Shown here: piece by piece, positions 4,184-18,791 of the stretch
Numbering within the stretch: the first letter of the stretch is position 1
How the letters are laid out: each line of letters starts with the position of its first letter
IMG/VR virus record: IMGVR_UViG_3300033143_002343
Coordinates: 1-21,116 of that record
DNA length: 21,116 nucleotides
Source: a virus
Strand: one strand, 5' to 3'
Notes under the pieces: generated by a model
The model's input: the letters and a program-made list of their open reading frames with translations, nothing else
Databases searched by the model: none
What the model was told of the DNA's origin: nothing
Position numbers and translations under genes: made by a program

Positions 4184-5883
4184 TGCCAGAAAAAACTTTA
4201 CCAGAGAGTCTTCGTCTTAGAATGAAACAACTCGAAGAAGAGAAACGACATTACGAAAGTATGCTGTATGATATAGCTCGATATGTAAATCCTCGCCGAG
4301 AGCTTCTTAGGGACTCGCAGAGATTTGATGACAGGGGCAAGGCAAGGGGTAAGAGTTCTTATAGCGGCGTACCAAACTCTGCTTTAAGCGTGTGGGTTGA
4401 TGGTATGCAGGGTCATTTGGTAAGTCAGTCCTTGAACTGGTTTAAGAATATTACATCAAGCCCTGCGTTGAATAGGGTTGATGAAGTTCAAGCGTATCTT
4501 CAGCAATACGACGAGGCTATGTATGGCGAATATAACAGGTCTAACTATTATTCTGTACTTGGTGAGTGGTTTAGGGACGCTGGTTCGATAGGGACTGCCA
4601 CCTTATTTACCGAAGAAGATATAGGCCGTGGTGTTGCTGTCCATATACCCATCCACCCGAGAGAGATATTTATATCAGAAGATAAGTATGGAAAGGTTGA
4701 CACAGTTTTTAGGAAGTTTTTCCTGACGGCAAAGCAGGCGGTAGACAAATTTGGCGAAAACAACCTCTCAAAGGATATAATAGATAATTCTAAAGAACAC
4801 CCCGAAAAGAAGCACGAGTTTATTCATGCTGTATTTCCTAATAAAGATAGAATGTTCGGCAGCTTACTGGCTATCCATAAGCCTTATGCCTCTGTGTATA
4901 TTCAGGCAGAGGCTAATAAAGACGGCAAACCCGACAATGTGATACGCAGGTCTGGTTTTGATATTAACCCTTATGCCGTTTGGCGATTCCGAAAGAACTC
5001 TGACGAGATTTACGGATATTCGCCCGCCGCTGATGCAATGGTGTCTATTAAGAAAATTCACCAGATGAGCAAAACGCTATTAGAAGCTGCACACAGGGCA
5101 GTTAAGCCAGTTCTGAATATACCTGAACACATGCGTGGCAATACCAGAATGACTCCTGATGGCCATAACTATTACGAGCGTGGCGGGGATATAATCAAGC
5201 CAGTCCACACCGGCGTTAATTACCCAATTGCTATAGACAGAGAAGAAAAAGTTCAGCGGATAATCGAAGACGCCTACAGAGTAGAGTTTTTCTTAATTCT
5301 TGCAAGAGCAGAACGAGAGATGACGGCTACCGAGATTATGGAACGTGCAGCCGAAAAAGCTGTTCTGCTTGGCCCACAGCAAGACAGGCTTTATGGTGAA
5401 GGTCTTGTTCCGGCCAACGAGAATGTTCACGAAATAGCTGATAAAGCAGGACGATTACCTGAGCCTCCTCAGATTTTAATTGATGCTAATGAAGATGCAA
5501 AGATGAGGGGTTTGCCGCCTATAAGGTTGACCCTTCAGCTTATCGGCCCGCTTGCGCAAGCCAGAAGGCGGCAGATGGAAATGCAGCCGATAAAAACCGG
5601 CCTAAACGAAATAGCACAAGCGTCAACGATATTTCCGAAAGTATTAGATAAGATTGACCCTGACAAATTAGCAGAGCGAATACTCGACTCTACAAACTTC
5701 CCGCAGGACGTATTAAGAACCGACGAGGAAGTTCGCCAGTTGAGAGAACAACAGGAAGCTGAACTTGCACAACAGCAGATACTGCAGCAGGCACAAGGAA
5801 TTGCTGAGGCATATCCTAAAATAAATGAAAAGATAGAAGGCGGCAGTCCCGCAGAGTTAATAGCGGGCCAGATGGGAGTTTGA
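4183..5883 (+). CDS. Portal (head-to-tail connector) protein
   Basis: A 566-residue T7 gp8-type portal, the ring at the unique vertex through which DNA enters and leaves and onto which the tail adaptor docks. Recognisable parts: N-terminal RLRMKQLEEEKRHYESMLYDIARYVNPRR, a typical connector start; SVWVDGMQGHLVSQSLNWF; the wing region GSIGTATLFTEED; IHPREIFISEDKYGKVDTVFRKF; then GYSPAADAMVSIKKIHQMSKTLLEAAHRAVKPVL and RAEREMTATEIMERAAEKAVLLGPQQDRL, near-diagnostic of the family. The C terminus is a Gln/Ala-rich helix (REQQEAELAQQQILQQAQG), the barrel or crown part. Length is normal. It starts on TAATG, coupled to the gene before. Confidence 0.95.
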   Translation: MPEKTLPESLRLRMKQLEEEKRHYESMLYDIARYVNPRRELLRDSQRFDDRGKARGKSSYSGVPNSALSVWVDGMQGHLVSQSLNWFKNITSSPALNRVDEVQAYLQQYDEAMYGEYNRSNYYSVLGEWFRDAGSIGTATLFTEEDIGRGVAVHIPIHPREIFISEDKYGKVDTVFRKFFLTAKQAVDKFGENNLSKDIIDNSKEHPEKKHEFIHAVFPNKDRMFGSLLAIHKPYASVYIQAEANKDGKPDNVIRRSGFDINPYAVWRFRKNSDEIYGYSPAADAMVSIKKIHQMSKTLLEAAHRAVKPVLNIPEHMRGNTRMTPDGHNYYERGGDIIKPVHTGVNYPIAIDREEKVQRIIEDAYRVEFFLILARAEREMTATEIMERAAEKAVLLGPQQDRLYGEGLVPANENVHEIADKAGRLPEPPQILIDANEDAKMRGLPPIRLTLQLIGPLAQARRRQMEMQPIKTGLNEIAQASTIFPKVLDKIDPDKLAERILDSTNFPQDVLRTDEEVRQLREQQEAELAQQQILQQAQGIAEAYPKINEKIEGGSPAELIAGQMGV

Positions 5884-5884
5884 A

Positions 5885-6013
5885 ATGCCAGTAAGAAAAT
5901 CAGGAAATAAATGGCGGATAGGTTCTGGCAAGGCTATGTATAAGAGTAAGGCTTCGGCGGAGAGGGCATATAGGGCATATAGGGCGAAAAAACATGCAAG
6001 AAAAAATAAGTAA
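5885..6013 (+). CDS. Small basic phage protein, 42 aa
   Basis: 42 residues, very basic, starting MPVRKSGNKWRIGSGKAMY and continuing YKSKASAERAYRAYRAK. It resembles a widespread short phage protein of the form MPV-K..-G-x-x-W, K-Y-K-S-K-x-x-A-E-R, whose function is not established. The start lies one base after the portal stop. The RAYRAYRAK segment is encoded by a 9-bp tandem repeat (AGGGCATAT, about 2.5 copies near 5964-5985). The 3' end overlaps the next gene by 20 bases. It could bind nucleic acid, but that is only inferred from charge. Confidence 0.6.
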   Translation: MPVRKSGNKWRIGSGKAMYKSKASAERAYRAYRAKKHARKNK

Positions 6014-6416: not shown

Positions 6417-7172
6417 ATGGCAGAAGAGCCTCAAGGGTCTCTGGTAACAGAGGGAACCCAGACAGAGACAACTCCGACCGCTTGGTATGGAGAGGAGTCT
6501 AAAAAAATTGTAGAAACAAAAGGATGGAAAACACCCGACGATGTAATCAAGGGCTATACCGAACTTGAGAAAACAGTTGGTGGCAGGGTTAAAATGCCGA
6601 CACCTGAAAGTTCGGCGGAGGAAATCAGGGCGTTCTATCAAAAAACCGGATGCCCAGAAAACCCAGACGGCTATGAGATTATTGTGCCAGAAGAAATGGC
6701 TGGCATGCGTGACGAGGGTATTGAGTCCGTAATCAAACAAATAGCCTATGACCAGGGCGTAAGCAAGCAGGCGTTTGAAAGCATTGTCAGGGGTTATTAT
6801 GAAAAAGTAAACGCCGACTTGATTGCAAGCAGAGAGGCTGGCGAGAAGGCGCTAAAAGAAGAGCTTGGCGACAAATATGATACAGAGGTCGGCATAGCAC
6901 AAAGGTTCTGTAAAGAAGCCTGCTCGCAGGAATTTAGGGATTTATTGGAGTCGTCTGGTCTTGGCAACAACCCTGTGTTCGTGAAAGAGTTTATCGGGTT
7001 GGGCAAAAAAACTATGGCAGATACTTTAATTAAAGGTTCTGCAGCTGGCGACGCTGACGAAGATAGCTATACGCCGCAATATAAAACTTCGCCTGAAATG
7101 TATGCTTCCGGCGAAGATGAAGAAAGCAAAAAAGCCCGTGCCTGGTTTGAGGCACGTGGACATAAATACTAA
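6417..7172 (+). CDS. Scaffold (capsid assembly) protein
   Basis: 251 residues, acidic, directly before the capsid gene, as scaffold proteins of T7-like phages are. The N terminus has WKTPDDVIKGYTELEKTVGGRVKMPTPES followed by FYQKTGCPENPDGYEI, a pattern shared by many phage capsid-assembly proteins. The middle is helical (YYEKVNADLIASREAGEKALKEELGDKY) and the C terminus polar and charged (SKKARAWFEARGHKY), fitting capsid contact. It would guide assembly of the shell and leave before or during packaging. The start ATG follows the previous stop by one base, with GAAAGGAA upstream. Confidence 0.85.
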   Translation: MAEEPQGSLVTEGTQTETTPTAWYGEESKKIVETKGWKTPDDVIKGYTELEKTVGGRVKMPTPESSAEEIRAFYQKTGCPENPDGYEIIVPEEMAGMRDEGIESVIKQIAYDQGVSKQAFESIVRGYYEKVNADLIASREAGEKALKEELGDKYDTEVGIAQRFCKEACSQEFRDLLESSGLGNNPVFVKEFIGLGKKTMADTLIKGSAAGDADEDSYTPQYKTSPEMYASGEDEESKKARAWFEARGHKY

Positions 7173-7346
7173 TCTCCCGCAAGGGATAAAGTGAGGTATA
7201 CAGAAATCTCAGATAACCTGCAATGGTCTGAGTGCACACACGTAAGTCGTGTTGGGGGCTGAACATATCAGCAAGTAGTAGTCCGTTATGGGCGGGTAAC
7301 TTCTGCGACCGTAGAGAAAGTCTAACTATTGTTAAAGGAGTTTACT
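7173..7346 (+). promoter_or_regulatory. Structured 5' leader of the capsid gene
   Basis: 174 bases without an ORF between scaffold and capsid. Consecutive hairpins can be drawn: TCCC-GCAA-GGGA at 7175-7186 (a GNRA-type loop); CTCAGA/TCTGAG at 7208-7213 and 7227-7232; ACACG-TAAGT-CGTGT at 7238-7252; GCTGA-ACATA-TCAGC at 7258-7272; and a weaker GTTA/TAAC at 7285-7300. The loop of the last holds GCGGG (7292-7296), complementary to CCCGC (7176-7180) in the first hairpin, allowing a long-range alternative pairing. The leader ends in a strong SD (AAAGGAG, 7334-7340), six bases before the capsid ATG. No known riboswitch or ribozyme signature was recognised. A role in translation control, RNA processing or stability is inferred. 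Confidence 0.5.
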
Positions 7347-8387
7347 ATGGCTATTACAGCTGTTAATTTAGACGACCGTGAAAATCTATTGCTTGCGTCA
7401 AAAATGACGCATAACCAGGAAATTATAGATGTAGCGGAAGTATTAAACGAGACTAATGATATTATTGCTGACGCTATTGTTCAGCGTGCGAATGACATCA
7501 CCTCTCACGTTGTTGCAAGGCGTACACGTCTTCCAGCCGTAAATTGGGTTAAGGTTGGTAATGGTTGGAACGCAACCACTGGTCTCGTCAATCAGGTTCG
7601 TGAAGAAATGGGTATGTTAAAAGCCCGCTATCTTTGTCCTGAAGACGTAATGAGGCTTCAGCCAAATCCCGCTAAGTATCGGCAGCAACAGGAACGTGCT
7701 TATATTGAGGCGATGGGGCAAGAACTTGCCAACACTTTAGTTGGCAATGCAAGTGGTGGAGCATTAAGCCCCACAGCAAGTCCACCCGAAGAGTTTGCCG
7801 GACTACAGTACAGGTATAATTCTTTAAGTACGGGTTCAAATTATGTCCTTAGTAATGGGCATACTACTGATGACAATACTAATACGTCGATTTGGTTCAT
7901 TCAATGGAAGCCAGGCGGGGTTTATCTGATTCACCCTCGTAACACTGATGGTGGCGGATTGAAGAAGAAAGACGAAGGTCGTGTTTTCACTTCTGGCGAC
8001 AACGCCGTTGCTTCTACATCTGCGACTGCACCTAACCCAACAAATTCCCTCTGGGCTTATGTAACAGAGTTTAGCTGGGATGTTGGGTTGTGTATCGAAG
8101 ACCAAAGATGTGTTAAAAGGTTGTGTAATATTGACCCCGACCATACTGCTACCAACACCTTGAATGAAGATTATATCATTCAGATTAGGAATAACTTTAA
8201 GACGAATGATACTATCTATATGTACTGTAATGAAACTGTGTTTACCCAACTGCAAATTCTGGCCAAGGATAAAACTAACGTCCACTGGTCAGAGAATAAT
8301 CCGTTTGGTAAACCTCAAATGTATTTCCTTGATATGCCGGTAAGACGTTGCGACGCAATTACTAATGTTGAGGCTGTTATTTCATAA
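7347..8387 (+). CDS. Major capsid protein (GP7/BPP-1-like)
   Basis: 346 residues forming the icosahedral shell, probably an HK97-type fold. Family-like landmarks: EIIDVAEVLNETNDIIADAI at the N terminus; RRTRLPAVNWVKVGNGWN; EEMGMLKARYLCPEDVM; ERAYIEAMGQELANTLVGNAS; EEFAGLQYRYNSLS; NTSIWFIQWKPGGVYLIHP; the closing FLDMPVRRCDAITNVEAVIS. This order is typical of the phage major capsid family often annotated GP7 (BPP-1-like podoviruses). The start is ATG 7347, served by AAAGGAG; an in-frame TTG at 7329 lies upstream of the SD and is rejected. The preceding structured leader may tune its high expression. Confidence 0.93.
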   Translation: MAITAVNLDDRENLLLASKMTHNQEIIDVAEVLNETNDIIADAIVQRANDITSHVVARRTRLPAVNWVKVGNGWNATTGLVNQVREEMGMLKARYLCPEDVMRLQPNPAKYRQQQERAYIEAMGQELANTLVGNASGGALSPTASPPEEFAGLQYRYNSLSTGSNYVLSNGHTTDDNTNTSIWFIQWKPGGVYLIHPRNTDGGGLKKKDEGRVFTSGDNAVASTSATAPNPTNSLWAYVTEFSWDVGLCIEDQRCVKRLCNIDPDHTATNTLNEDYIIQIRNNFKTNDTIYMYCNETVFTQLQILAKDKTNVHWSENNPFGKPQMYFLDMPVRRCDAITNVEAVIS

Positions 8388-8400
8388 GAAAGGATAAAAA

Positions 8401-8865
8401 ATGTCTATTTATGATGCAAAATTTGAATTATTGGATGACGGCGCTCTCTATGCTGATGACACGACTGATTACAATGCCGCCACCGCAAAAGAGATTGACT
8501 GGGTTGCCTCTGACCTTGATATTGGCCAGGGCACTCCCATCTATCTGAACATCAGGGTTGGGACAACTGTTTATGCTGGTGGAACTACTTGTGATTTTAA
8601 GTTGTTTGCAGATGACACATCAGAGGGTCACGACAGCAACAGTACGGTTGTTTTGTCAACCGGCCCGATTGCTACCGCAAATCTGGACGCTGCTGGTGAT
8701 TATGTGTTTAGCGGTGCCGTTCCAATTACTGTTGATACTGAAAGGTATCTGCAGCTTGGCGTGACTTGTGTTGGAACATATACGCAAGGCTCAGTTGATG
8801 CGTGGTTGAGCTACTCGCCTATAGGGTCGACTTACGACACTCAGGTTGACAGTTCTAATATTTAA
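8401..8865 (+). CDS. Bbp16-like capsid cement/decoration protein
   Basis: 154 residues, all-beta, directly after the capsid gene (13-base gap, SD AAAGGA). Features: short N-terminal strand IYDAKFELLDDGAL, then DIGQGTPIYLNIRVGTTV, GTTCDFKLFADDTS..., VVLSTGPI, and RYLQLGVTCVGTYTQGSVDAWLSY. The G-x-G-x-P-I-Y-L-x-I-x-V and R-Y-L-x-L-x-x-x-x-x-G-x-x-x-x-G-x-V-x-A pattern matches Bbp16-type cement proteins, which stabilise the shell at capsomer contacts. Length is in the normal range. It lacks cysteine clusters or a signal peptide. Confidence 0.82.
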   Translation: MSIYDAKFELLDDGALYADDTTDYNAATAKEIDWVASDLDIGQGTPIYLNIRVGTTVYAGGTTCDFKLFADDTSEGHDSNSTVVLSTGPIATANLDAAGDYVFSGAVPITVDTERYLQLGVTCVGTYTQGSVDAWLSYSPIGSTYDTQVDSSNI

Positions 8866-8883: not shown

Positions 8884-11067
8884 ATGAAAAAGTTTTTACT
8901 TATACTACTCTTCATTGTCTTTATGGTTCAACTTTGTATGGCGTCGTTTACCACGTCTATTGATGAAAAGAAAACGTGGAAAAACGCATACCGCTTTACA
9001 AATAAGCCTAAGGACAAATTTCTGGACTGGTGTCAGGAAGTTGAAGACAGGATAGATGGTACAACTGGGTTTTCGTACCTATATCTCATTCCCAGCACTG
9101 AACCGGCATCAACCGAAGGAAATATCTATTACAACTCGTCCACACAGAATATCTCTTATTACAATGGTGCTTCGTGGCTAACGCTTGGTATTTCTTCGAG
9201 TGGAACGCTTGATGAGGCATACAATGCTGGTCATGGTATTGATGTAGATGGCACTGCTGTCACATTAACGGTTAGTGATGGCGATAATAATGCTGGGTTA
9301 ATCGTAGCACAAAATGATTCTACTAATGACCCTGATGCTATGAACATCACAAGTGCTGCTGATTCAGCTACTGCTGTTGGATTGCAGATAGATTGTACTG
9401 CTGGCTTTGATATTCAGGGTACCAGTGACTCGTGGAATATATCAATAGCAGGTCTGTTTGGTGGCGAAGGGCTTACTGGTCTGACGAACTCACAGAGCAT
9501 CTTATTTGACACGAATAATGAGATTCAGTTTGGTGATAACTCAGAAGATGTTGCAATGGTATTTAGTACAAATACTGTCACGTGGGCTACTGATACCGGT
9601 GTTGATTCGATGGCATTTGGCGATGTAGACGACCTTGAGGGTGTTGGAACTATTGTTTTTGACGCTGCCGCAAGTTCAATTACGTGTACTGCCGATGCTG
9701 GTGCAGAAGATTTAACTATTAGCCAAGCTGGCGCTGTTGATGCAAGCCTAATCTTGACGTCTGCTGGTACGGGTACTGATGCCGTTAGTATCTCTACCTC
9801 AAATGCCGATGGTGACATCAAGGTTGCATCTGCGGATAATATCGACATTGATGCCGCTGATGATATTGCTATTGATACTGCCGATGGGTCGATTTCAATT
9901 ACTGCTGCCGGTGCTGTTAATGGTGATTATACATTAACTGTTGGTGACGATTATGCCTTGGTCGGTACAAGTAAAATAGAAATATCTAATTCTGGCGCAG
10001 GTGAAGATATTACTATAGATTCAGCTCTTGGTAGTATTTCCATTGAGGCAGAAGAGGATGCAGCAAATGCGCTTCAGTTAATTGCTGACGGTGGCACATC
10101 GTCGACTCTTAAAATATTTAATGATACAGGTACATCAGTTGCCGAGACCGCTGCGTCTGTGCAAATATTAAGTGATGTTGGCGGAATTAGCTTGGTATCA
10201 AATGCCAATCTTGCCAAGAGTATACAACTTGTGGCTGACGGCGGGGTTGATGAATATATTTATATTCAGTCTGACCAAGGTACAGGCGCTGACTCGATAA
10301 CGCTTTTGTCTGACGTTGGCGGTATAACCGCTACAGCTTCGGCTGGCCCTGTGGCTATTACCGCTTCTGGTGCGAGTGCTGGCGACCTTACAATTTCCGC
10401 AGGTGACGTAATGAACATTACCCATGTAGACAAAGCTATTTTTAGTGGTGCTGCTGCTGAGACATGGGAAATCGAAGGCACAGCTGACGACCATGAAGCG
10501 ACAGTAGTGTTTACAGACCCAACTGCTGATATAACATGGACGTTCCCGACGGGTGCAGCCGATACATTAGCTGTTATGAGTTCTACTTTGGCGACTAATA
10601 TTCCAGAGGCGGCTAATTCTGTTACTGGCGGTACTAATCAACTTATCTTTGAGGGCACTGCTGACGACCATGAAACCATTCTAACAGCTACAGATGCAAC
10701 TGCTGATGCAACTTTAACACTGCCAGATGATACTGGAACGATTGTTTATACTGCTGAGGCTGGTTCAGCTACCAAAGATAATTCTAATGCTGATTTGCCA
10801 TTAACAGATGCCGTTGTTCTTGGTACAAGTGGCGCTGCTTCCGCATGGGGACTCCCAGACGGTGAGAATGGGCAGATATTATCTGTGGTTATTGTAACAG
10901 ATGGTGGTGAGGCTACAATCACACCAGCAACCTCTTCTGGATGGGCAACCGCTGTTTTAACAGATGCTATTGACCAAATATCGTTTATGTATGTTAATGA
11001 CACGGTTGGTTGGATTATTCTTGGAACATCTGGTGATGGAACTAACACAGTAGAAATAACACAATAA
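8884..11067 (+). CDS. Repetitive beta-rich fibre-like protein with signal peptide
   Basis: 727 residues. The first 20 form a textbook Sec signal peptide: MKK, then the hydrophobic LLILLFIVFMVQL, and a likely signal peptidase I site after CMA; it is not a lipobox. Residues about 100-520 are Asp/Ala/Thr/Gly-rich short beta repeats, including a duplicated unit at about 396-490 (LQLIADGG..LSDVGGISL and IQLVADGG..LSDVGGITA). A further repeat, EGTADDHE at about 531 and 590, is encoded by nearly identical 21-mers 177 bp apart (10477-10497 and 10654-10674). The C terminus (GLPDGENGQILSVVIV, then GWIILG) resembles phage fibre-type end domains. It is probably a head or tail fibre, or a phage-encoded surface protein. 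A signal peptide is unusual in a virion protein. A terminator follows. Confidence 0.75.
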   Translation: MKKFLLILLFIVFMVQLCMASFTTSIDEKKTWKNAYRFTNKPKDKFLDWCQEVEDRIDGTTGFSYLYLIPSTEPASTEGNIYYNSSTQNISYYNGASWLTLGISSSGTLDEAYNAGHGIDVDGTAVTLTVSDGDNNAGLIVAQNDSTNDPDAMNITSAADSATAVGLQIDCTAGFDIQGTSDSWNISIAGLFGGEGLTGLTNSQSILFDTNNEIQFGDNSEDVAMVFSTNTVTWATDTGVDSMAFGDVDDLEGVGTIVFDAAASSITCTADAGAEDLTISQAGAVDASLILTSAGTGTDAVSISTSNADGDIKVASADNIDIDAADDIAIDTADGSISITAAGAVNGDYTLTVGDDYALVGTSKIEISNSGAGEDITIDSALGSISIEAEEDAANALQLIADGGTSSTLKIFNDTGTSVAETAASVQILSDVGGISLVSNANLAKSIQLVADGGVDEYIYIQSDQGTGADSITLLSDVGGITATASAGPVAITASGASAGDLTISAGDVMNITHVDKAIFSGAAAETWEIEGTADDHEATVVFTDPTADITWTFPTGAADTLAVMSSTLATNIPEAANSVTGGTNQLIFEGTADDHETILTATDATADATLTLPDDTGTIVYTAEAGSATKDNSNADLPLTDAVVLGTSGAASAWGLPDGENGQILSVVIVTDGGEATITPATSSGWATAVLTDAIDQISFMYVNDTVGWIILGTSGDGTNTVEITQ

Positions 11068-12143: not shown

Positions 12144-12248
12144 ATGCCAAGATTAGATGGTACTAGCCCTAATGGAGAGGGGCCAATGACAGGTGGCGGG
12201 TTTGGAAATTGTGAAGGAGATAATATGGCTAAAGGCAGGAGGCGCTAA
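12144..12248 (+). CDS. DUF5320-like mini-protein, 34 aa
   Basis: 34 residues: MPRLDGTSPNGEGPMTGGG, then FGNCEGDNMAKGRRR. The start MPR-x-DGT-x-P-x-G-x-GPMTG-x-G-x-G-x-C is the recognisable signature of DUF5320-like small proteins, which occur in many bacteria and some phages with unknown function. It has an excellent SD (AAGGAG, 12133-12138, five bases before the ATG), and its stop overlaps the adaptor start (TAATG). A glycine-rich, single-cysteine, basic-tailed peptide; the role is unknown. Confidence 0.65.
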   Translation: MPRLDGTSPNGEGPMTGGGFGNCEGDNMAKGRRR

Positions 12249-13060
12249 TGGCTACAGATGCTACTGAAATTTGTAATTTAGCTCTCTTAAAAATGGGACA
12301 AAGCACCATAGATGATGCTGTTACACCAGGCTCTTCTGTGTTAGAGGTTAAGTGTAATCTACTCTATGAACAATGCAGGGATGAGTTGCTTGTGGAAGGC
12401 CCGCAGTTGGGCTGGAAGTTTGCAACCCGTCGGTACAATGAAATAGACGACGAGAGGTTTACAATTATCTCTATTGCAGAAAGTTCTACATCCGGCGATA
12501 TAACCGTTACAGCCACACATACATTACAAGTTGGCGATTTGGTGGAATTGGATGGTGATACTGGCTATGACGGCGAATACGAAGTTACAGCTATATCTAC
12601 TACAGAAACCTTTGATGTAACGGCAACATTCGTGGCTACCGGCACAGGCTATGCCTACTGGCGAAGCGGAGAGTATAGTTACAGGTATCTTATACCGTCA
12701 AGCCCGACCGTTCTAAGAATTTCTTCTGTTCAAGTCGGCGGCGTAGAGATTACCGACTGGATAAGAGAGGGTGATTATATCCTTACTAACGAGGAAAGCG
12801 ACGAGATTAGCTTAACGATAGTCCAGCAAATAACTGATACAACTAAATTTCCGCCTTGGTTCACGAGGTTACTTGTACTGAAACTGGCGATAGAACTTCA
12901 CTACAACCTCACACAGGATTTACGGGCAATACAATTGCTTGGACAGGAATACGACCTTGCTTGGTCGAAGGCTGTGGCTATGGACGAAAGGGAAAAGTAT
13001 GTAGCAGAGTCCGATACAAGCTGGGTGGATGCCGGAAATGTAAACGACAATATAATATAG
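12248..13060 (+). CDS. Tail adaptor, T7 gp11-like (tail tubular protein A)
   Basis: 270 residues. The adaptor binds below the portal and connects it to the nozzle. The start ATEICNLALLKMGQSTIDD...LYEQCRDELLVEGPQLGWKFATRR is the typical gp11-type helical region (I-x-N-x-A-L-x-x-L-G; Y-x-x-x-R-D-x-x-L). Residues about 72-138 are a beta insertion (ITVTATHTLQVGDLVELDG, GYDGEYEVTAI, TGYAYW) resembling the small FCCH-like domain found spliced into many phage proteins. The family pattern resumes with YRYLIPSSPTVLRISSVQ, and the helical C terminus PWFTRLLVLKLAIELHYNLTQD closes it. Start fixed by the TAATG overlap. Confidence 0.85.
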   Translation: MATDATEICNLALLKMGQSTIDDAVTPGSSVLEVKCNLLYEQCRDELLVEGPQLGWKFATRRYNEIDDERFTIISIAESSTSGDITVTATHTLQVGDLVELDGDTGYDGEYEVTAISTTETFDVTATFVATGTGYAYWRSGEYSYRYLIPSSPTVLRISSVQVGGVEITDWIREGDYILTNEESDEISLTIVQQITDTTKFPPWFTRLLVLKLAIELHYNLTQDLRAIQLLGQEYDLAWSKAVAMDEREKYVAESDTSWVDAGNVNDNII

Positions 13061-13459: not shown

Positions 13460-14028
13460 ACCTAACTACACCTTCTCATAAAATCTGGCCTATGCGGGCA
13501 ACAGGGGCAGAGGACACGCTTCTCGACTTGACTACGGCGGGGGATTATGAAAATAGGCCGTCAGCCGGGGTGTTAGACTTACTTAAAGACAATGTAGAAT
13601 GGACAAACAACTCTACAGAAACAGATAATAACACTCACGACCTTGAAACAAACGGTATGGAGATTTATATCGCTGGCAGCACAGCTCATAGCAGAAATGC
13701 GATATGGTATCTTACTGCCTGGCGAAATGAGAACGGGCCTGCAAAACGAGTTGCACAAGGGACTTGCACAACAGGAACACAAGCGGTAGTTAAATGGCCT
13801 CACAATAACGCAGCTATAGCAAATACTTTCTGGTGTGACCAGATTGTAGTAACTTGGCATAACTGGCCAAAAGGTGTGGTTGGTACGGACGCCGACGGAA
13901 ACAGCAATAGCGTTGGGAGTTTATGGTTTGACGCTTGCGGGTATAGGTATTGGATGATAGAATTTAATACCACTGACGCAGAAGCGACAGCACTAACCAA
14001 TCTAACAGCATTTTACGGGAGGTTCTAA
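13456..14028 (+). CDS. Phage structural protein, unknown (GTG start)
   Basis: 190 residues starting at GTG in a GTGA overlap with the previous stop. Seen are EDTLLDLTTAGDYENRPSAGVLDLL, then a strand-rich C-terminal half with many aromatics (IWYLTAWRNENGPAKRV, CDQIVVTWHNWPKGV, SLWFDACGYRYWMIEFNTTDA) and the ending LTAFYGRF. It is probably a beta-sandwich virion protein. I recognise no family. It sits directly before the nozzle N-terminal part, whose presumed ATC start overlaps its stop (TAATC), with the SD GGGAGG inside its last codons. Confidence 0.6.
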   Translation: MNLTTPSHKIWPMRATGAEDTLLDLTTAGDYENRPSAGVLDLLKDNVEWTNNSTETDNNTHDLETNGMEIYIAGSTAHSRNAIWYLTAWRNENGPAKRVAQGTCTTGTQAVVKWPHNNAAIANTFWCDQIVVTWHNWPKGVVGTDADGNSNSVGSLWFDACGYRYWMIEFNTTDAEATALTNLTAFYGRF

Positions 14029-16151
14029 TCGCAAAAACAAACAAGATAATCCAGTCTCTCAACGCTGGCGAAATTTCTCCGCTAATGGATATGCGCATCG
14101 ACCAGGAGAAATACCAAATGGGTTGCCGCACAATGGAGAACTTCTATCCGTTGATTTACGGCGGAGCAGAGAGGCGTCCTGGTACATACTTTGTGGGGGA
14201 AGCAAAAGACAGTTCGGCCAAGATAAGGCTGGTAGATTTTGTCTATTCAGTTGACCAGGCATACATATTAGAGTTTGGCAATCAATATATAAGATTTTAC
14301 GCAAACAGCGGCAGGTTTGTTAGTAAACTTGCCGCAAGTATTTCAACTTGGGCAGACGGAACAACTTATTACGCAGGCGATTTTGTCAAGGGTTCAGATA
14401 CGGACATTTATCGTTGCCTAATTGGTCACGTCGCCGACGCAGGCGGCACAGACGCAACTGGCGGTGACCCTGCCAGTGACGGCAACCCTACACAATGGGA
14501 GAATGCTACCGATACAGCGGGAGCGCTTACATCCGATTTATACCCTATATATGAGATTCCTTCTCCCTACCTTACGGCGGACTTGTTTGAACTTAAATTT
14601 GAGCAGTCCGCCGATGTTATGTATATAGCTCACCCCAGTTATGAGCCGAGGAAGTTGTCGAGAATCAACGAGACCACATTTGTTTTAGAAGAATATGGTT
14701 GTAAGACGGGCCCATTCCAAGACCTCAACACAGTAACAACTGCGCTTATCACACCTTCAGCCACTACCGGCACAATCACACTTACTGCTTCCGGTACAGC
14801 CAAAGACGGTTCGGCGTTTGCGCCGTTTCAGGCAGGCACAGATGTTGGCGGTTTTAATACCAATGGGCACAAGCCAAGCGTGGCAACTGGCGACTCCAAT
14901 GCAGGCACTTCACAGACCGCCCCCGCCATAACCGGAACGCTATTCAAAATTATTCAATCTATGGAGGAGAGCCAGATAGATGAAATATTTACTGCAACAG
15001 GTACGTCGGATTCTTTATTGGTGTATAAAGGCGTTAAATGGGATTTTGTAACTAAGGGTACGTGGTCAGGAATATTTAAACTTGAACGAGCTTACATAGA
15101 GACATCAACAGTGTGGGAAACTGTGGCCACTGTAACCTCAACATTCAATAACAACGAAGCTGTCGAGGGCGAGGAAGATGTCGGCGATGCTTACTATAGA
15201 ATAAACTGTTCAGACATTGATACGGGTGTAAGTGGCGACCATTACCCAGAAGCACAATTCTCTGTTAGAGACACTTCTCATATCGGGATAGTCGAGATAA
15301 CAGACGTTACAAGTACGACAGTGGCTACTGGTACAGTCCTGCAAACTTTAGGCTCTACCGACAAAACTCACCGTTGGGCTGAGGGTTATTGGAGTAATTA
15401 TAGGGGCTGGCCGAGCTGTGTAGCAATATCAAGCGAGGAAAGATTAACTTTTGCGGGCAGCACAAGTTTTCCACTTACTGTATGGGGTAGCGTTTCAGGC
15501 GATTATACCGATATGACTATTGGCACAAACGACGACGATGCGTTTATCTTTACCCTTGTAGGTTCAGGCAGACAGAATGCTATACGCTGGATAGTGTCTA
15601 AGAACGCTTTGGTTCTCGGCACTTATGGCGGAGAACACGTTCTCGGTGCAAGTGACGACAAAGAGGCTATGACGCCTACCAATGTGAATGCTAAGATACA
15701 ATCAACCTATGGTTCTGAAGATATTCAGGCTATTTTGGTAGGTGATTCTATCTTATTCGTCCAGCGTGGCGGGCGCAGGCTTAGAGAGATGCATTACGAC
15801 TTTGAGAAAGACTCAATGATAGCGGAGGATTTAACTGTCTTTGCCAATCATATTACAGAGAATACCATAGATGAGATAGCTTATCAGAGAACGCCAGACC
15901 CCGCTGTGTTATGTATAAGAGGCGATGGGCAAGTTGCTTATTTGTCTTATGAAAGAAGTCAGGATGTGTGGTCGTGGTGTCGTTTAATTACAAGTACTAA
16001 TCTTGCCGGAACACAAACCGCCTCAGAGTTTGAAAGCGTTGCGGTTATTCCAACTTCTGGCGAAGAAGACCAAATATGGTTTTCGGTTAATCGTACTATC
16101 GGAGGTGCTACAAAGAGGTACATAGAATATATGGCTCCCCGTGCATTTTAA
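14028..16151 (+). CDS. Tail nozzle protein (tubular protein B, gp12-like), N-terminal part
   Basis: About 707 residues of the nozzle, the distal part of the short tail. Conserved start: IIQSLNAGEISPL, then MDMRIDQEKYQMGCRTMENFYPLIYGGAERRPGT. Residues about 106-159 are an insertion resembling a CBM5/12-like fold (STWADGTTYYAGDFV, YRCLIGH, TQWENA). Later blocks, GYWSNYRGWPSCVAISSEERLTFAG and FVQRGGRRLREMHYDFEKD, are strong family marks. It stops at YIEYMAPRAF, just where related proteins continue into their C-terminal domain. The conserved start precedes the first ATG (14085), and the frame has no ATG, GTG or TTG there. ATC 14028, five bases after GGGAGG and overlapping the previous stop, is the best candidate start; ATG 14085 is the conservative one. 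Confidence 0.85.
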   Translation: MAKTNKIIQSLNAGEISPLMDMRIDQEKYQMGCRTMENFYPLIYGGAERRPGTYFVGEAKDSSAKIRLVDFVYSVDQAYILEFGNQYIRFYANSGRFVSKLAASISTWADGTTYYAGDFVKGSDTDIYRCLIGHVADAGGTDATGGDPASDGNPTQWENATDTAGALTSDLYPIYEIPSPYLTADLFELKFEQSADVMYIAHPSYEPRKLSRINETTFVLEEYGCKTGPFQDLNTVTTALITPSATTGTITLTASGTAKDGSAFAPFQAGTDVGGFNTNGHKPSVATGDSNAGTSQTAPAITGTLFKIIQSMEESQIDEIFTATGTSDSLLVYKGVKWDFVTKGTWSGIFKLERAYIETSTVWETVATVTSTFNNNEAVEGEEDVGDAYYRINCSDIDTGVSGDHYPEAQFSVRDTSHIGIVEITDVTSTTVATGTVLQTLGSTDKTHRWAEGYWSNYRGWPSCVAISSEERLTFAGSTSFPLTVWGSVSGDYTDMTIGTNDDDAFIFTLVGSGRQNAIRWIVSKNALVLGTYGGEHVLGASDDKEAMTPTNVNAKIQSTYGSEDIQAILVGDSILFVQRGGRRLREMHYDFEKDSMIAEDLTVFANHITENTIDEIAYQRTPDPAVLCIRGDGQVAYLSYERSQDVWSWCRLITSTNLAGTQTASEFESVAVIPTSGEEDQIWFSVNRTIGGATKRYIEYMAPRAF

Positions 16152-16566
16152 TTTTTTGGTGCAAAATTCTATGGCATTTATTGCAAAGCGGAATAACATT
16201 TAATCGATTATCTATATCGTATCCATTGTAGTGATGATACTCTTCGGCTTGTCCATTGCATATTGTACAAGTACATAATGATATTTTTTTTAATTTATTG
16301 TTTCTAACGGCTTGATTAACGGCATTACACGCCTGTCTCTTGTGGAAATCACGAACGTAACGGTTTTGTTGTGCTCGTTTATGACCCTCTCGTAAGCGAT
16401 ATTTCTTTTCTGTTATTTTACCCTGTTGCGTTGAACGATAACGATTCCTTGCTATAAGACGACATTTTCTACATTGACAACAAAGGCCGTCTTTGTTGTA
16501 TTTATCTTTGCAAAATTCGCTTAACCCTTTTACTTCTTTACACTTAGAACATTGTTTAGTTTCCAT
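16108..16566 (-). CDS. HNH endonuclease (mobile, inserted in nozzle locus)
   Basis: 152 residues on the minus strand, the only antisense gene. N-terminal zinc module: Cys6-x2-Cys9, then DKYNKDGLCCQCRKCR with Cys32-x2-Cys35, a common accessory of phage HNH nucleases. The HNH core has Cys100-x2-Cys103, His111-His112, Asn123, and Cys128-x2-Cys131-His132, followed by RILHQKIK. The last ~12 residues (MHGEPYILCTSL) are antisense to the nozzle N-terminal ORF, as if the gene ran past its natural end into the target. It has its own SD (GGAG, five bases before ATG) and promoter. Such genes are typically free-standing homing endonucleases that cut insertion-free alleles; that is inferred here. AT content is higher than in the flanks. 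Confidence 0.88.
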   Translation of the reverse strand: METKQCSKCKEVKGLSEFCKDKYNKDGLCCQCRKCRLIARNRYRSTQQGKITEKKYRLREGHKRAQQNRYVRDFHKRQACNAVNQAVRNNKLKKISLCTCTICNGQAEEYHHYNGYDIDNRLNVIPLCNKCHRILHQKIKMHGEPYILCTSL

Positions 16567-16587
16567 AATATCTCCGATTAAAACTAT

Positions 16588-16616
16588 AATATACTATAAG
16601 GATAACCTTTTGTCAA
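16588..16616 (-). promoter_or_regulatory. Sigma70-like promoter of the HNH gene
   Basis: Read on the minus strand: TTGACA (complement of 16611-16616), a 17-base spacer, then TATATT (complement of 16588-16593). The -35 is consensus and the -10 has one mismatch. It lies 22 bases upstream of the HNH ATG, facing it, inside an AT-rich gap. It would let the endonuclease be expressed by host RNA polymerase independently of the late operon. Confidence 0.7.
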
Positions 16617-16647
16617 GTATAAAATATAAAAATTTTTTGAGGGCGTT

Positions 16648-18255
16648 TTGACAACCAAAGCAAATGCTCATTTCGTTGATTGCGATATATCCGGTATGTC
16701 TGGGTTGGACGATTGGGAGAGCAATAATTACAAATATCCAGATGCAATCGTAACTCCTGGTAAGATTGGAATTGGTACGGCAGAAGAATTGCAGAAGATA
16801 AGTTGGGACGATGATTATCCAAGAGACGGAGATTATGAACTTACAGCCGACATAGATTGCAGTAGTATAGACTGGTGGAAACCAATTGGTGGAAGACATC
16901 CAGATAACGGTGGGTATAATACTTTTATTGGAACTTTTGATGGCAGAAATTATACTATAAGTAATGTAAATGTCAAAACAATTGCAACATATAATCCATT
17001 AAACAAATATAGCGATTATGGACTGTTTGGGCGTGTTGATGGTGTTACGATAGAAAACGTAATTTTAGAGAACGCAGATTATGTGTTCGCAAATATTTCG
17101 CACGGTTCTGGAGCTGGGCTATTAGTTGGTTATTGCGTTACAGAAAGTGTTAATATTATCAGAAAGTGTAGTGTATCAGGGTCGATTACAGGTGTTGACA
17201 CTGTAGGAATATGGCGGTCTGGGGGCATTGTTGGAAGTGCAAGTTCTGGTACTACTATATCCTTGTGCCATACAGACTGCGATTTTACAAGTGGTACTAC
17301 CGCATTAAACACTAATTGTGGTGGCATTGTTGGTATAACAAGTGGGGCGGCGACCATTGAAAATTGTTATGCAACAGGAACGATAACCGGAACTGTTGGC
17401 AAGCGACTTAGGGAATGTGGTGGATTAGCTGGCGACCTTACTGCCAATATAACAATAACGAATTGTTATTCCGCAATGACTTTTGCAGGAACAGTGTATG
17501 AAGATGTAGGTGGTTTTATTGGGGAGGGAAATAGTAAGGGTATATTTAGTGATTGTTTTTGGGATGGTGATGTTCAAGGAGACGGATTTAATTTGGACGA
17601 TGTTGGCGATGATGGCGATGTTGATGGTGTTACCAAAGGCACTTCTGGCGATGGTGGCGCAAACGATATGTACAAAGAAACCACATTTACCAACTGGGAT
17701 TTTTTGAATATCTGGGAAATTGAAGAAGACGTATCTTATCCAACTTTGCTATGGTTATCTCAGCCGCCAACAAAGATAAAAACTGGCGAACAGCATCGCA
17801 CAACCGCTATGCCTACTGACTATAGCCATCTTAACGGCCAGACCGTACAGGGCTTAGGCGACGGCTCATATCTCGGCACAGAGGTAGTATCAGGCGGTGC
17901 AGTAGATATGGACGACGACACGACAATTAACCATATAGGCTTGCAATACACAAGTACAATCCTACCTATGAAGATAGACGGCGAGGTAAACATCAAGCGG
18001 ATAAGCAAGATTATACCAAACGTCTACGAGAGCGTAGGAGGCGATTACGGGCGTGATAGCGATAATATGTACTCAATGGTATTAAGAGACTTAAACGACC
18101 CCTTAGACACCGACTCAGACCTATTCAGCGGCCATGTAGAGCTACCTTATGACGGTACATACGACAGGAGTGGAGATATGTACATTAAACAGATATATCC
18201 TCTGCCTTATCACCTTTTGGGGATGGGCGTTGATTTATCACAGGAGGCAATATAG
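16648..18255 (+). CDS. Nozzle C-terminal module 1 with inserted GLUG beta-solenoid
   Basis: 535 residues, TTG start with GAGGG (16639-16643) four bases before it. Residues 1-25 (KANAHFVDCDISGMSGLDDWE) and 380-535 (HRTTAMPTDYSHLNGQTV, GLQYTS, LPYDGTYDRSGDMYIKQIYPLP) make up the C-terminal domain of a podovirus nozzle protein. Between them, about 38-370, lies a bacterial-type GLUG repeat region: IGTAEELQKIS, FIGTFDGRNYTISNV, GGIVG, IENCYATGTITG, GGLAGD, ITNCYS, closing with FTNWDFLNIWEIEEDVSYPTL. GLUG proteins form beta-solenoids and are usually secreted surface or adhesin-like proteins. Part of the insert is AT-rich (31% G+C over 16921-17100 against 47% over 17881-18060). It may contact the host surface. 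Confidence 0.8.
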   Translation: MTTKANAHFVDCDISGMSGLDDWESNNYKYPDAIVTPGKIGIGTAEELQKISWDDDYPRDGDYELTADIDCSSIDWWKPIGGRHPDNGGYNTFIGTFDGRNYTISNVNVKTIATYNPLNKYSDYGLFGRVDGVTIENVILENADYVFANISHGSGAGLLVGYCVTESVNIIRKCSVSGSITGVDTVGIWRSGGIVGSASSGTTISLCHTDCDFTSGTTALNTNCGGIVGITSGAATIENCYATGTITGTVGKRLRECGGLAGDLTANITITNCYSAMTFAGTVYEDVGGFIGEGNSKGIFSDCFWDGDVQGDGFNLDDVGDDGDVDGVTKGTSGDGGANDMYKETTFTNWDFLNIWEIEEDVSYPTLLWLSQPPTKIKTGEQHRTTAMPTDYSHLNGQTVQGLGDGSYLGTEVVSGGAVDMDDDTTINHIGLQYTSTILPMKIDGEVNIKRISKIIPNVYESVGGDYGRDSDNMYSMVLRDLNDPLDTDSDLFSGHVELPYDGTYDRSGDMYIKQIYPLPYHLLGMGVDLSQEAI

Positions 18256-18791
18256 CAACTTTAGTAAACGCACATTTCGTTGACTCAGACATAACAGAGG
18301 ATACGTCCGGTTCTGACGATTGGAGTAGCGGCTCTGGTGCAACTGCACAAGAAAGAACTACAGCCTTTCCACAGGACAGAAGCCACCTTAACGGCCAGAC
18401 TGTCGATATACTCGATGATGGTGTAGTAGTAACAGACCAAGTTGTAACGGGTGGAGTAGTTACAGGAATATCCGGCACGTATCATATAGGACTGAACTAC
18501 GTATCCACTGTAAAGCCAAGCAAGCTCGATATTGAGGGAATGGGTATAATTCTGACCAAAAAGATAACTAAGGCTATTGTGAGTTTTTACCAAACCCTGA
18601 AAGGCAAGGTCGGCGTAGATGCTGACGATATGGCTACTGTAGATTTCGGCACAACGCTATTTGACGGTATAAAGGAAGTGTCTATGAATAACGGCTACGA
18701 CAGGTCGGGTGATATAATTATTCAGCAAGACGAGCCTCTGCCGATGACGTGCCGAGGGCTGGTGTTAGATACAGGGGTGCACAATAAATGA
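18252..18791 (+). CDS. Nozzle C-terminal module 2 (paralogue, no GLUG insert)
   Basis: About 179 residues paralogous to the ends of module 1: ATLVNAHFVDSDITEDTSGSDDW, ERTTAFPQDRSHLNGQTVDIL, HIGLNYVST, NGYDRSGDIIIQQDEPLPMT. The 14 conserved positions around SHLNGQTV and YDRSGD make the match plain. It lacks the GLUG part and so looks like the plain nozzle C terminus. The frame opens after a stop at 18231-18233 and has no ATG, GTG or TTG before 18540, well inside the domain. AGGAGG (18242-18247) lies four bases before ATA 18252, which overlaps the previous stop (ATAG); I take ATA as the likely start. Its stop overlaps the next ATG. Untranslated remnant is the alternative, but the intact frame argues against decay. 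Confidence 0.72.
   Translation: MATLVNAHFVDSDITEDTSGSDDWSSGSGATAQERTTAFPQDRSHLNGQTVDILDDGVVVTDQVVTGGVVTGISGTYHIGLNYVSTVKPSKLDIEGMGIILTKKITKAIVSFYQTLKGKVGVDADDMATVDFGTTLFDGIKEVSMNNGYDRSGDIIIQQDEPLPMTCRGLVLDTGVHNK

Follow-up and report, generated by a model that had tools for sequence, protein, structure and literature searches.

The nozzle locus and its coding pieces

The window analysed is the whole 21,116-base virus record, a 21 kb metagenomic contig. A podophage structural block runs across it, with terminase, portal, scaffold-like, major capsid and fibre-like genes and, further, a tail tubular A-like gene, the nozzle, an acetyltransferase-like gene and internal virion proteins. Some of these gene names were taken from general knowledge and from comparison with a sister phage, L002 (IMG/VR 3300035698_002285, 27.8 kb). 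The tail nozzle occupies positions 14028-18791 and is encoded in three pieces (N, C1 and C2); an HNH gene on the opposite strand lies between the first two. All of these elements had been named in the initial annotation, and they were recovered here as open frames, the three nozzle pieces also by matches to the tail profile phrog_376.

The N chain (14028..16151, plus strand, 707 aa) is a beta-propeller body with a conserved N terminus, and its frame closes on ...KRYIEYMAPRAF*. The C1 chain (16648..18255, plus strand, 535 aa) has a TTG start with GAGGG at 16639-16643 and begins TTKANAHFVD. The C2 chain (18252..18791, plus strand, 179 aa) begins IATLVNAHFVD and is a plain platform without a large insert. 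YDRSGD...PLP closes both C chains.

The phrog_376 profile (712 positions) was matched by N at positions 3-534 (2e-153), by C1 at positions 557-707 (1e-22) and by C2 at positions 541-709 (1.3e-22). Together, N and either C1 or C2 span positions 3-709 of the 712. The solved Carin 1 'Tail Nozzle' (8ck1) is spanned likewise. It was recovered at 1e-220 by a profile built from six members of the family, of which four are fused phage nozzles; the alignment of N alone runs to residue 568 (...RYIEYLDSRRF) and that of C1 covers residues 675-819. N and the two C pieces thus fall on successive parts of the intact nozzle, as the initial annotation had proposed to check, and at the sequence level the match of each is far above chance. 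Both C1 and C2 are homologous to the remaining part of the nozzle, the C-terminal platform domain, which in C1 lies at 17791..18252 (plus strand) and is modelled with a pLDDT mostly of 80-90. VNAHFVDSGL is present inside the intact single-chain nozzles L092-L094, which indicates that C1 and C2, by opening with NAHFVD, carry on the nozzle sequence in the ordinary way. The gene order, with the tail tubular A-like gene at 12248-13060 (phrog_394), fits a nozzle between the adaptor and the tip, as judged from the genes alone. Homology over the whole nozzle places the locus in the podophage tail nozzle family (phrog_376 / T7 gp12 type). The single-chain encoding usual for that family is replaced by three frames, an unusual gene form rather than a separate family. 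A weak match to a carbohydrate-binding module (CBM_5_12), below the family cut-off, was also seen within N at 14346-14469 (N residues 107-148), where LamG domains are found in related nozzles.

Translation starts

No ATG, GTG or TTG codon is available ahead of the conserved N terminus of N. The start is likely the ATC at 14028, read from the sequence as overlapping the upstream stop (TAATC) and lying 5 nt behind a strong GGGAGG Shine-Dalgarno-like site (14017..14022, plus strand). Similarly, C2 likely starts with the ATA at 18252, which overlaps the C1 stop and lies 4 nt behind a strong AGGAGG Shine-Dalgarno-like site (18242..18247, plus strand). The N and C2 genes of L002 both start with ATG at the corresponding places, and the N start of another relative, L178, appears to be ATT at 4799. 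Starts lacking an ATG, GTG or TTG option were found in 3 of the 144 nozzles examined (the window, L012 and L178); the start in L012 lies near 5905-6001. These near-cognate starts suggest that initiation may be coupled to termination of the preceding gene.

A hydrophobic, signal-peptide-like leader precedes the conserved N terminus in L009 (4207), L010 (near 4207), L012 (near 5935) and L208 (860). The fibre-like protein of the window (8884-11067) opens with MKKFLLILLFIVFMVQLCMA, which is likewise hydrophobic and signal-peptide-like. Such leaders would not be expected on virion proteins, which assemble in the cytoplasm.

Position of the cut

The last residue of the N chain is the one with which the beta-propeller is closed in intact nozzles. 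Structure prediction for L031, a fused relative of 668 aa, gave a model with a mean pLDDT of 90, which matches 8ck1 with a Z of 45.9 over 648 residues and T7 gp12 with a Z of 26-28. By alignment, the end of N in the window corresponds to L031 residue 489, which sits in a coil (485-500) between the strands 476-484 and 501-515. Alignments of unrelated beta-propellers to the L031 model cover about residues 37-491 and end there. The cut in the coil and the end of the propeller alignments at the same point indicate that N is the propeller body and that the cut falls at a domain border.

In the T7 nozzle, the propeller is followed by the fibre dock, which lies on the outer surface, and the dock by the platform (PMC6702177). 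The L031 model shows the same succession of propeller and platform, and N and C2 of the window map onto it by alignment. Three strands of the T7 platform barrel come from the first 45 residues of the chain (PMC6702177). This sharing of strands makes a non-covalent hold between separate N and C chains plausible.

Split nozzles in relatives

The gene order of the window is common to L002, with identities of 88% for the terminase, 79% for the portal, 83% for the capsid protein and 78% for the N chain. The same N, C1 and C2 pieces are present in L002, where the N stop overlaps the C1 start in TAGTG and the C1 stop overlaps the C2 start in TAATG. The HNH gene was found neither at the N/C1 junction of L002 nor anywhere else in its record. 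Since L002 is split without an HNH gene, the nozzle was evidently split, and its C part duplicated, before the HNH gene came in. A search for relatives lacking both the HNH gene and the first C module had been suggested in the initial annotation; L002 lacks the former and keeps the latter.

The nozzle of L178, which was found through its capsid protein, is cut in the same loop at a point about 44 residues downstream, and it has a TAATG overlap and a single C gene. The gap between N and C holds a gene for a 537-aa pectate-lyase-like beta-helix protein (PF12708) at 6959-8572. Fused relatives with a single C part number at least about 150 among the nozzle-search matches listed, in which a few contigs occur twice, and two C genes were seen only in the window and L002 among these matches. 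Further split relatives may exist beyond them. In the N tree, the window, L002 and L178 group weakly (85/39), beside five fused relatives; judged from this tree, a single split event is possible, as are two. L010 was also considered as a split nozzle, with a frameshift in the same linker and the rest of the C domain intact; this is probably a sequencing error, and it was not counted.

The C1 and C2 modules

Phylogenetic analysis of the C domains was used to place the two modules. The C1 chains of the window and L002 form one sister pair and the C2 chains another, with supports of 100/96-99 and 100/99. The two pairs are joined at 99/97 in the broad-set tree. In a tree with close relatives, which were found through the capsid protein, C1 and C2 are joined with moderate support (85/89) inside a 100/99 clade that includes the C domains of these relatives. 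The trees, together with the profile matches, bear out the initial annotation in that C1 and C2 are paralogous nozzle C termini that share NAHFVD starts and DRSGD...PLP ends. The branching favours a tandem duplication before the window phage and L002 parted, rather than the import of a foreign end. A foreign origin of the C modules had been considered when the early N and C trees seemed discordant; an AU test did not reject a shared placement (p 0.525), and the conflict disappeared once the close relatives were added.

N, the C1 platform and C2 are each conserved, with dN/dS values of about 0.08-0.09; these are rough values, with dS near or past saturation. The profile of fused nozzles scored C1 slightly better (119-136 bits) than C2 (95-104 bits), and C1 retains slightly more of the family-conserved residues. 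Between the window and L002, C2 is the better conserved, at 84% identity against 68% for C1. The initial annotation had taken C2 as the possibly ancestral C terminus; on this, the profile score and the identity between the two phages point in opposite directions.

A variable slot at the fibre-dock position

The main difference between C1 and C2 is a single loop that follows the NAHFVD strand and precedes the platform, at the position of the T7 fibre dock. In C1 of the window, this loop holds a GLUG-repeat region (16720..17790, plus strand; PF07581, 3.4e-6). The reading of C1 as a C-terminal module is thus upheld for its platform, and about residues 25-380 of the chain are taken up by the GLUG repeats instead. 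The GLUG region has distant relatives in gut phages, and its structure was predicted with low confidence. In C1 of L002, the slot is filled by a beta-propeller of the DUF5122 type (PF17164, E 1.2e-5, slightly short of the family cut-off), for which no relative was found among phage records. In C2, the slot is only about 30 residues long. The GC3 of the insert is 0.275 in C1 of the window and 0.294 in C1 of L002. By sequence comparison, the swapped element is therefore a domain within C1, GLUG in the window and DUF5122 in L002.

The same region is used by close relatives as well: L178 has its pectate-lyase-like gene there, and L179 has a fused nozzle of 1500 aa with a LamG domain inside its C part. 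LamG and CBM_5_12-like inserts are found in the N part. In L198 (7962-11009), a von Willebrand A (VWA) domain lies between the body and the platform of the nozzle. The N-part inserts and the VWA domain indicate that, in this section of the family, nozzles frequently bear extra domains.

The HNH gene and its insertion

A 496-base insert (16152..16647) separates the N stop from the C1 start in the window and is absent from L002, where these codons overlap. Its GC content is about 0.32 versus 0.46 in N. The HNH endonuclease gene (16108..16566, minus strand, 152 aa) matches the endonuclease profile phrog_2340 (E 4.7e-15), and the 3' end of the gene overlaps the final codons of N, which lie on the opposite strand. 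The HNH residues are found in HHYNGYDIDNRLNVIPLCNKCHRILH, and homologues of about 33% identity occur in many phages. No relatives in viral contigs were found by exact peptide patterns. A promoter-like site, TTGACA-17-TATATT (11/12), precedes the gene (16588..16616, minus strand), and promoter-like sites overall are no commoner in the window than in shuffles. The antisense HNH gene of the initial annotation was thus found again, with a promoter-like site of its own.

The endonuclease homology and the presence of the gene in the window and its absence at the same site in L002 are those of a free-standing HNH homing endonuclease. An Rfam scan of the window returned no family, group I and II introns included. 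With no Rfam match and with the HNH frame antisense to the nozzle, the gene does not have the features of an intron-encoded endonuclease. From the comparison of the two phages, the HNH gene is a late passenger that did not cause the split. Another nuclease gene of mobile appearance, from the endonuclease VII family (PF02945, 2.4e-26), lies at positions 125-475 of the window and has no match in the L002 record.

Proposed explanation and alternatives

The explanation that we consider probable is a nozzle made in pieces, in which C chains dock non-covalently on N, the C gene has been duplicated, C1 has become adhesin-like and the HNH gene is a later passenger. The N chain would form the beta-propeller body and end in the loop leading from the propeller to the fibre-dock position and the platform. 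Separate, translationally coupled C chains would form the platform and dock on N, and the completion of the platform barrel by strands of the N-terminal 45 residues, as in T7-type nozzles, would be a plausible basis for this docking. The free-standing C gene would then have been duplicated in tandem. C1 would carry a large replaceable domain at the fibre-dock position, most likely displayed as an adhesin or receptor-binding unit, and C2 would be the plain platform chain. Finally, a free-standing HNH gene would have entered the N/C1 junction of the window phage. Since N is a nozzle body and C1 and C2 are paralogous nozzle C termini, a nozzle of separate N and C chains, with a choice of two C variants, would follow naturally, as the initial annotation had expected; both C chains may be present in virions. 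Of these elements, the homology, the place of the cut, the paralogy of C1 and C2, the exchange of the C1 insert and the late arrival of the HNH gene are shown by the comparisons above, and the docking of the chains, their stoichiometry and the adhesin role are inferred.

In a bolder and more tentative form of this explanation, the nozzle would be hetero-oligomeric by design. N chains would bind both C1, with its variable adhesin at the fibre-dock position, and C2, as plain chain, in one tail. The resulting nozzles would be mosaic, or could even have twelve C chains in a ring to match the 12-fold adaptor, and the nozzle would be a diversifiable receptor-binding organ.

The main rival places C1 outside the nozzle core, as a separate adhesin anchored by a borrowed, duplicated platform, with N and C2 alone forming the working nozzle. 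The higher conservation of C2 between the two phages, its lack of a large insert and the replaceable insert of C1 all agree with this arrangement. However, C1 directly follows N and is slightly richer in family-conserved residues, and fused relatives hold inserts in the same loop while being the structural nozzle; we regard this rival as rather unlikely. Far less credit is given to the cassette put forward in the initial annotation, in which an HNH element arrived together with a new C terminus and placed it before the old one, akin to orphan modules of polymorphic systems with a foreign C module upstream of a displaced ancestral one. The HNH gene does adjoin C1, whose insert is large, foreign-looking and low in GC3, but L002 holds C1 and C2 without the HNH gene, its insert is equally low in GC3, and C1 and C2 group together as sisters. 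The cassette reading was therefore abandoned.

Two further alternatives would remove the split altogether. N and C1 could be joined by RNA splicing, readthrough or frameshifting into a normal single-chain nozzle, and slippage is conceivable at the overlapping stop and start codons of the L002 junctions. Against this stand the lack of any Rfam family in the window, the antisense orientation of the inserted frame and the Shine-Dalgarno-like sites that C1 and C2 each possess, so that such joining is very improbable. The least probable alternative is that the nozzle gene is broken by decay or by an assembly artefact in this genome or contig. The missing standard start codons of N and C2 and the metagenomic origin of the short record would agree with it, but all pieces are open and conserved in the independent contig L002, with low dN/dS, and a third contig, L178, is split in the same loop.

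Comparison with known systems and meaning

Single-chain podophage nozzles (Carin 1 8ck1, LME-1 orf18 9efk, T7 gp12 and phrog_376) share the sequence and the domain order of the locus; here, in contrast, N and two C chains are separate genes, and a large insert is present only in C1. Modular receptor-binding proteins and tailspikes combine a conserved virion anchor with a swapped distal domain. The window and its relatives resemble them in having a conserved virion-binding part and a replaceable adhesin- or lyase-like part (GLUG, DUF5122, LamG, pectate-lyase-like), and differ in that the anchor is the nozzle's own platform domain and not a fibre or spike anchor.

Split genes with an endonuclease gene in the gap are known from the T4-like gene 43 (43A/43B, phages 25 and 44RR), Aeh1 nrdA/mobE and T4 topoisomerase/mobA (PMC2988022). 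The products of such split genes work together where tested, and co-purification and activity were shown for some (PMC2988022). As in the nozzle, a normally single-chain gene is cut between domains and an endonuclease gene lies in the gap. The endonuclease of phage 25 may have entered a gene 43 that was already split (PMC2988022), as is proposed for the window. Those cases concern enzymes, whereas here a structural tail protein is cut, its C part is duplicated and the endonuclease gene is antisense. No published split nozzle was found in the open-access papers searched.

The nozzle closes the DNA channel, and one would expect such a protein to tolerate division poorly. Here, it is cut where two domains naturally meet, the outer part is present in two copies, and unrelated adhesin-like domains occupy a slot in the outer loop; in L178, the loop takes a whole lyase-like gene. 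If the proposed assembly is true, the locus would add a case of an endonuclease gene settling in an existing split and would provide a natural split protein for the study of nozzle assembly, and short-tailed phages could change their receptor-binding parts while the channel body remains untouched.
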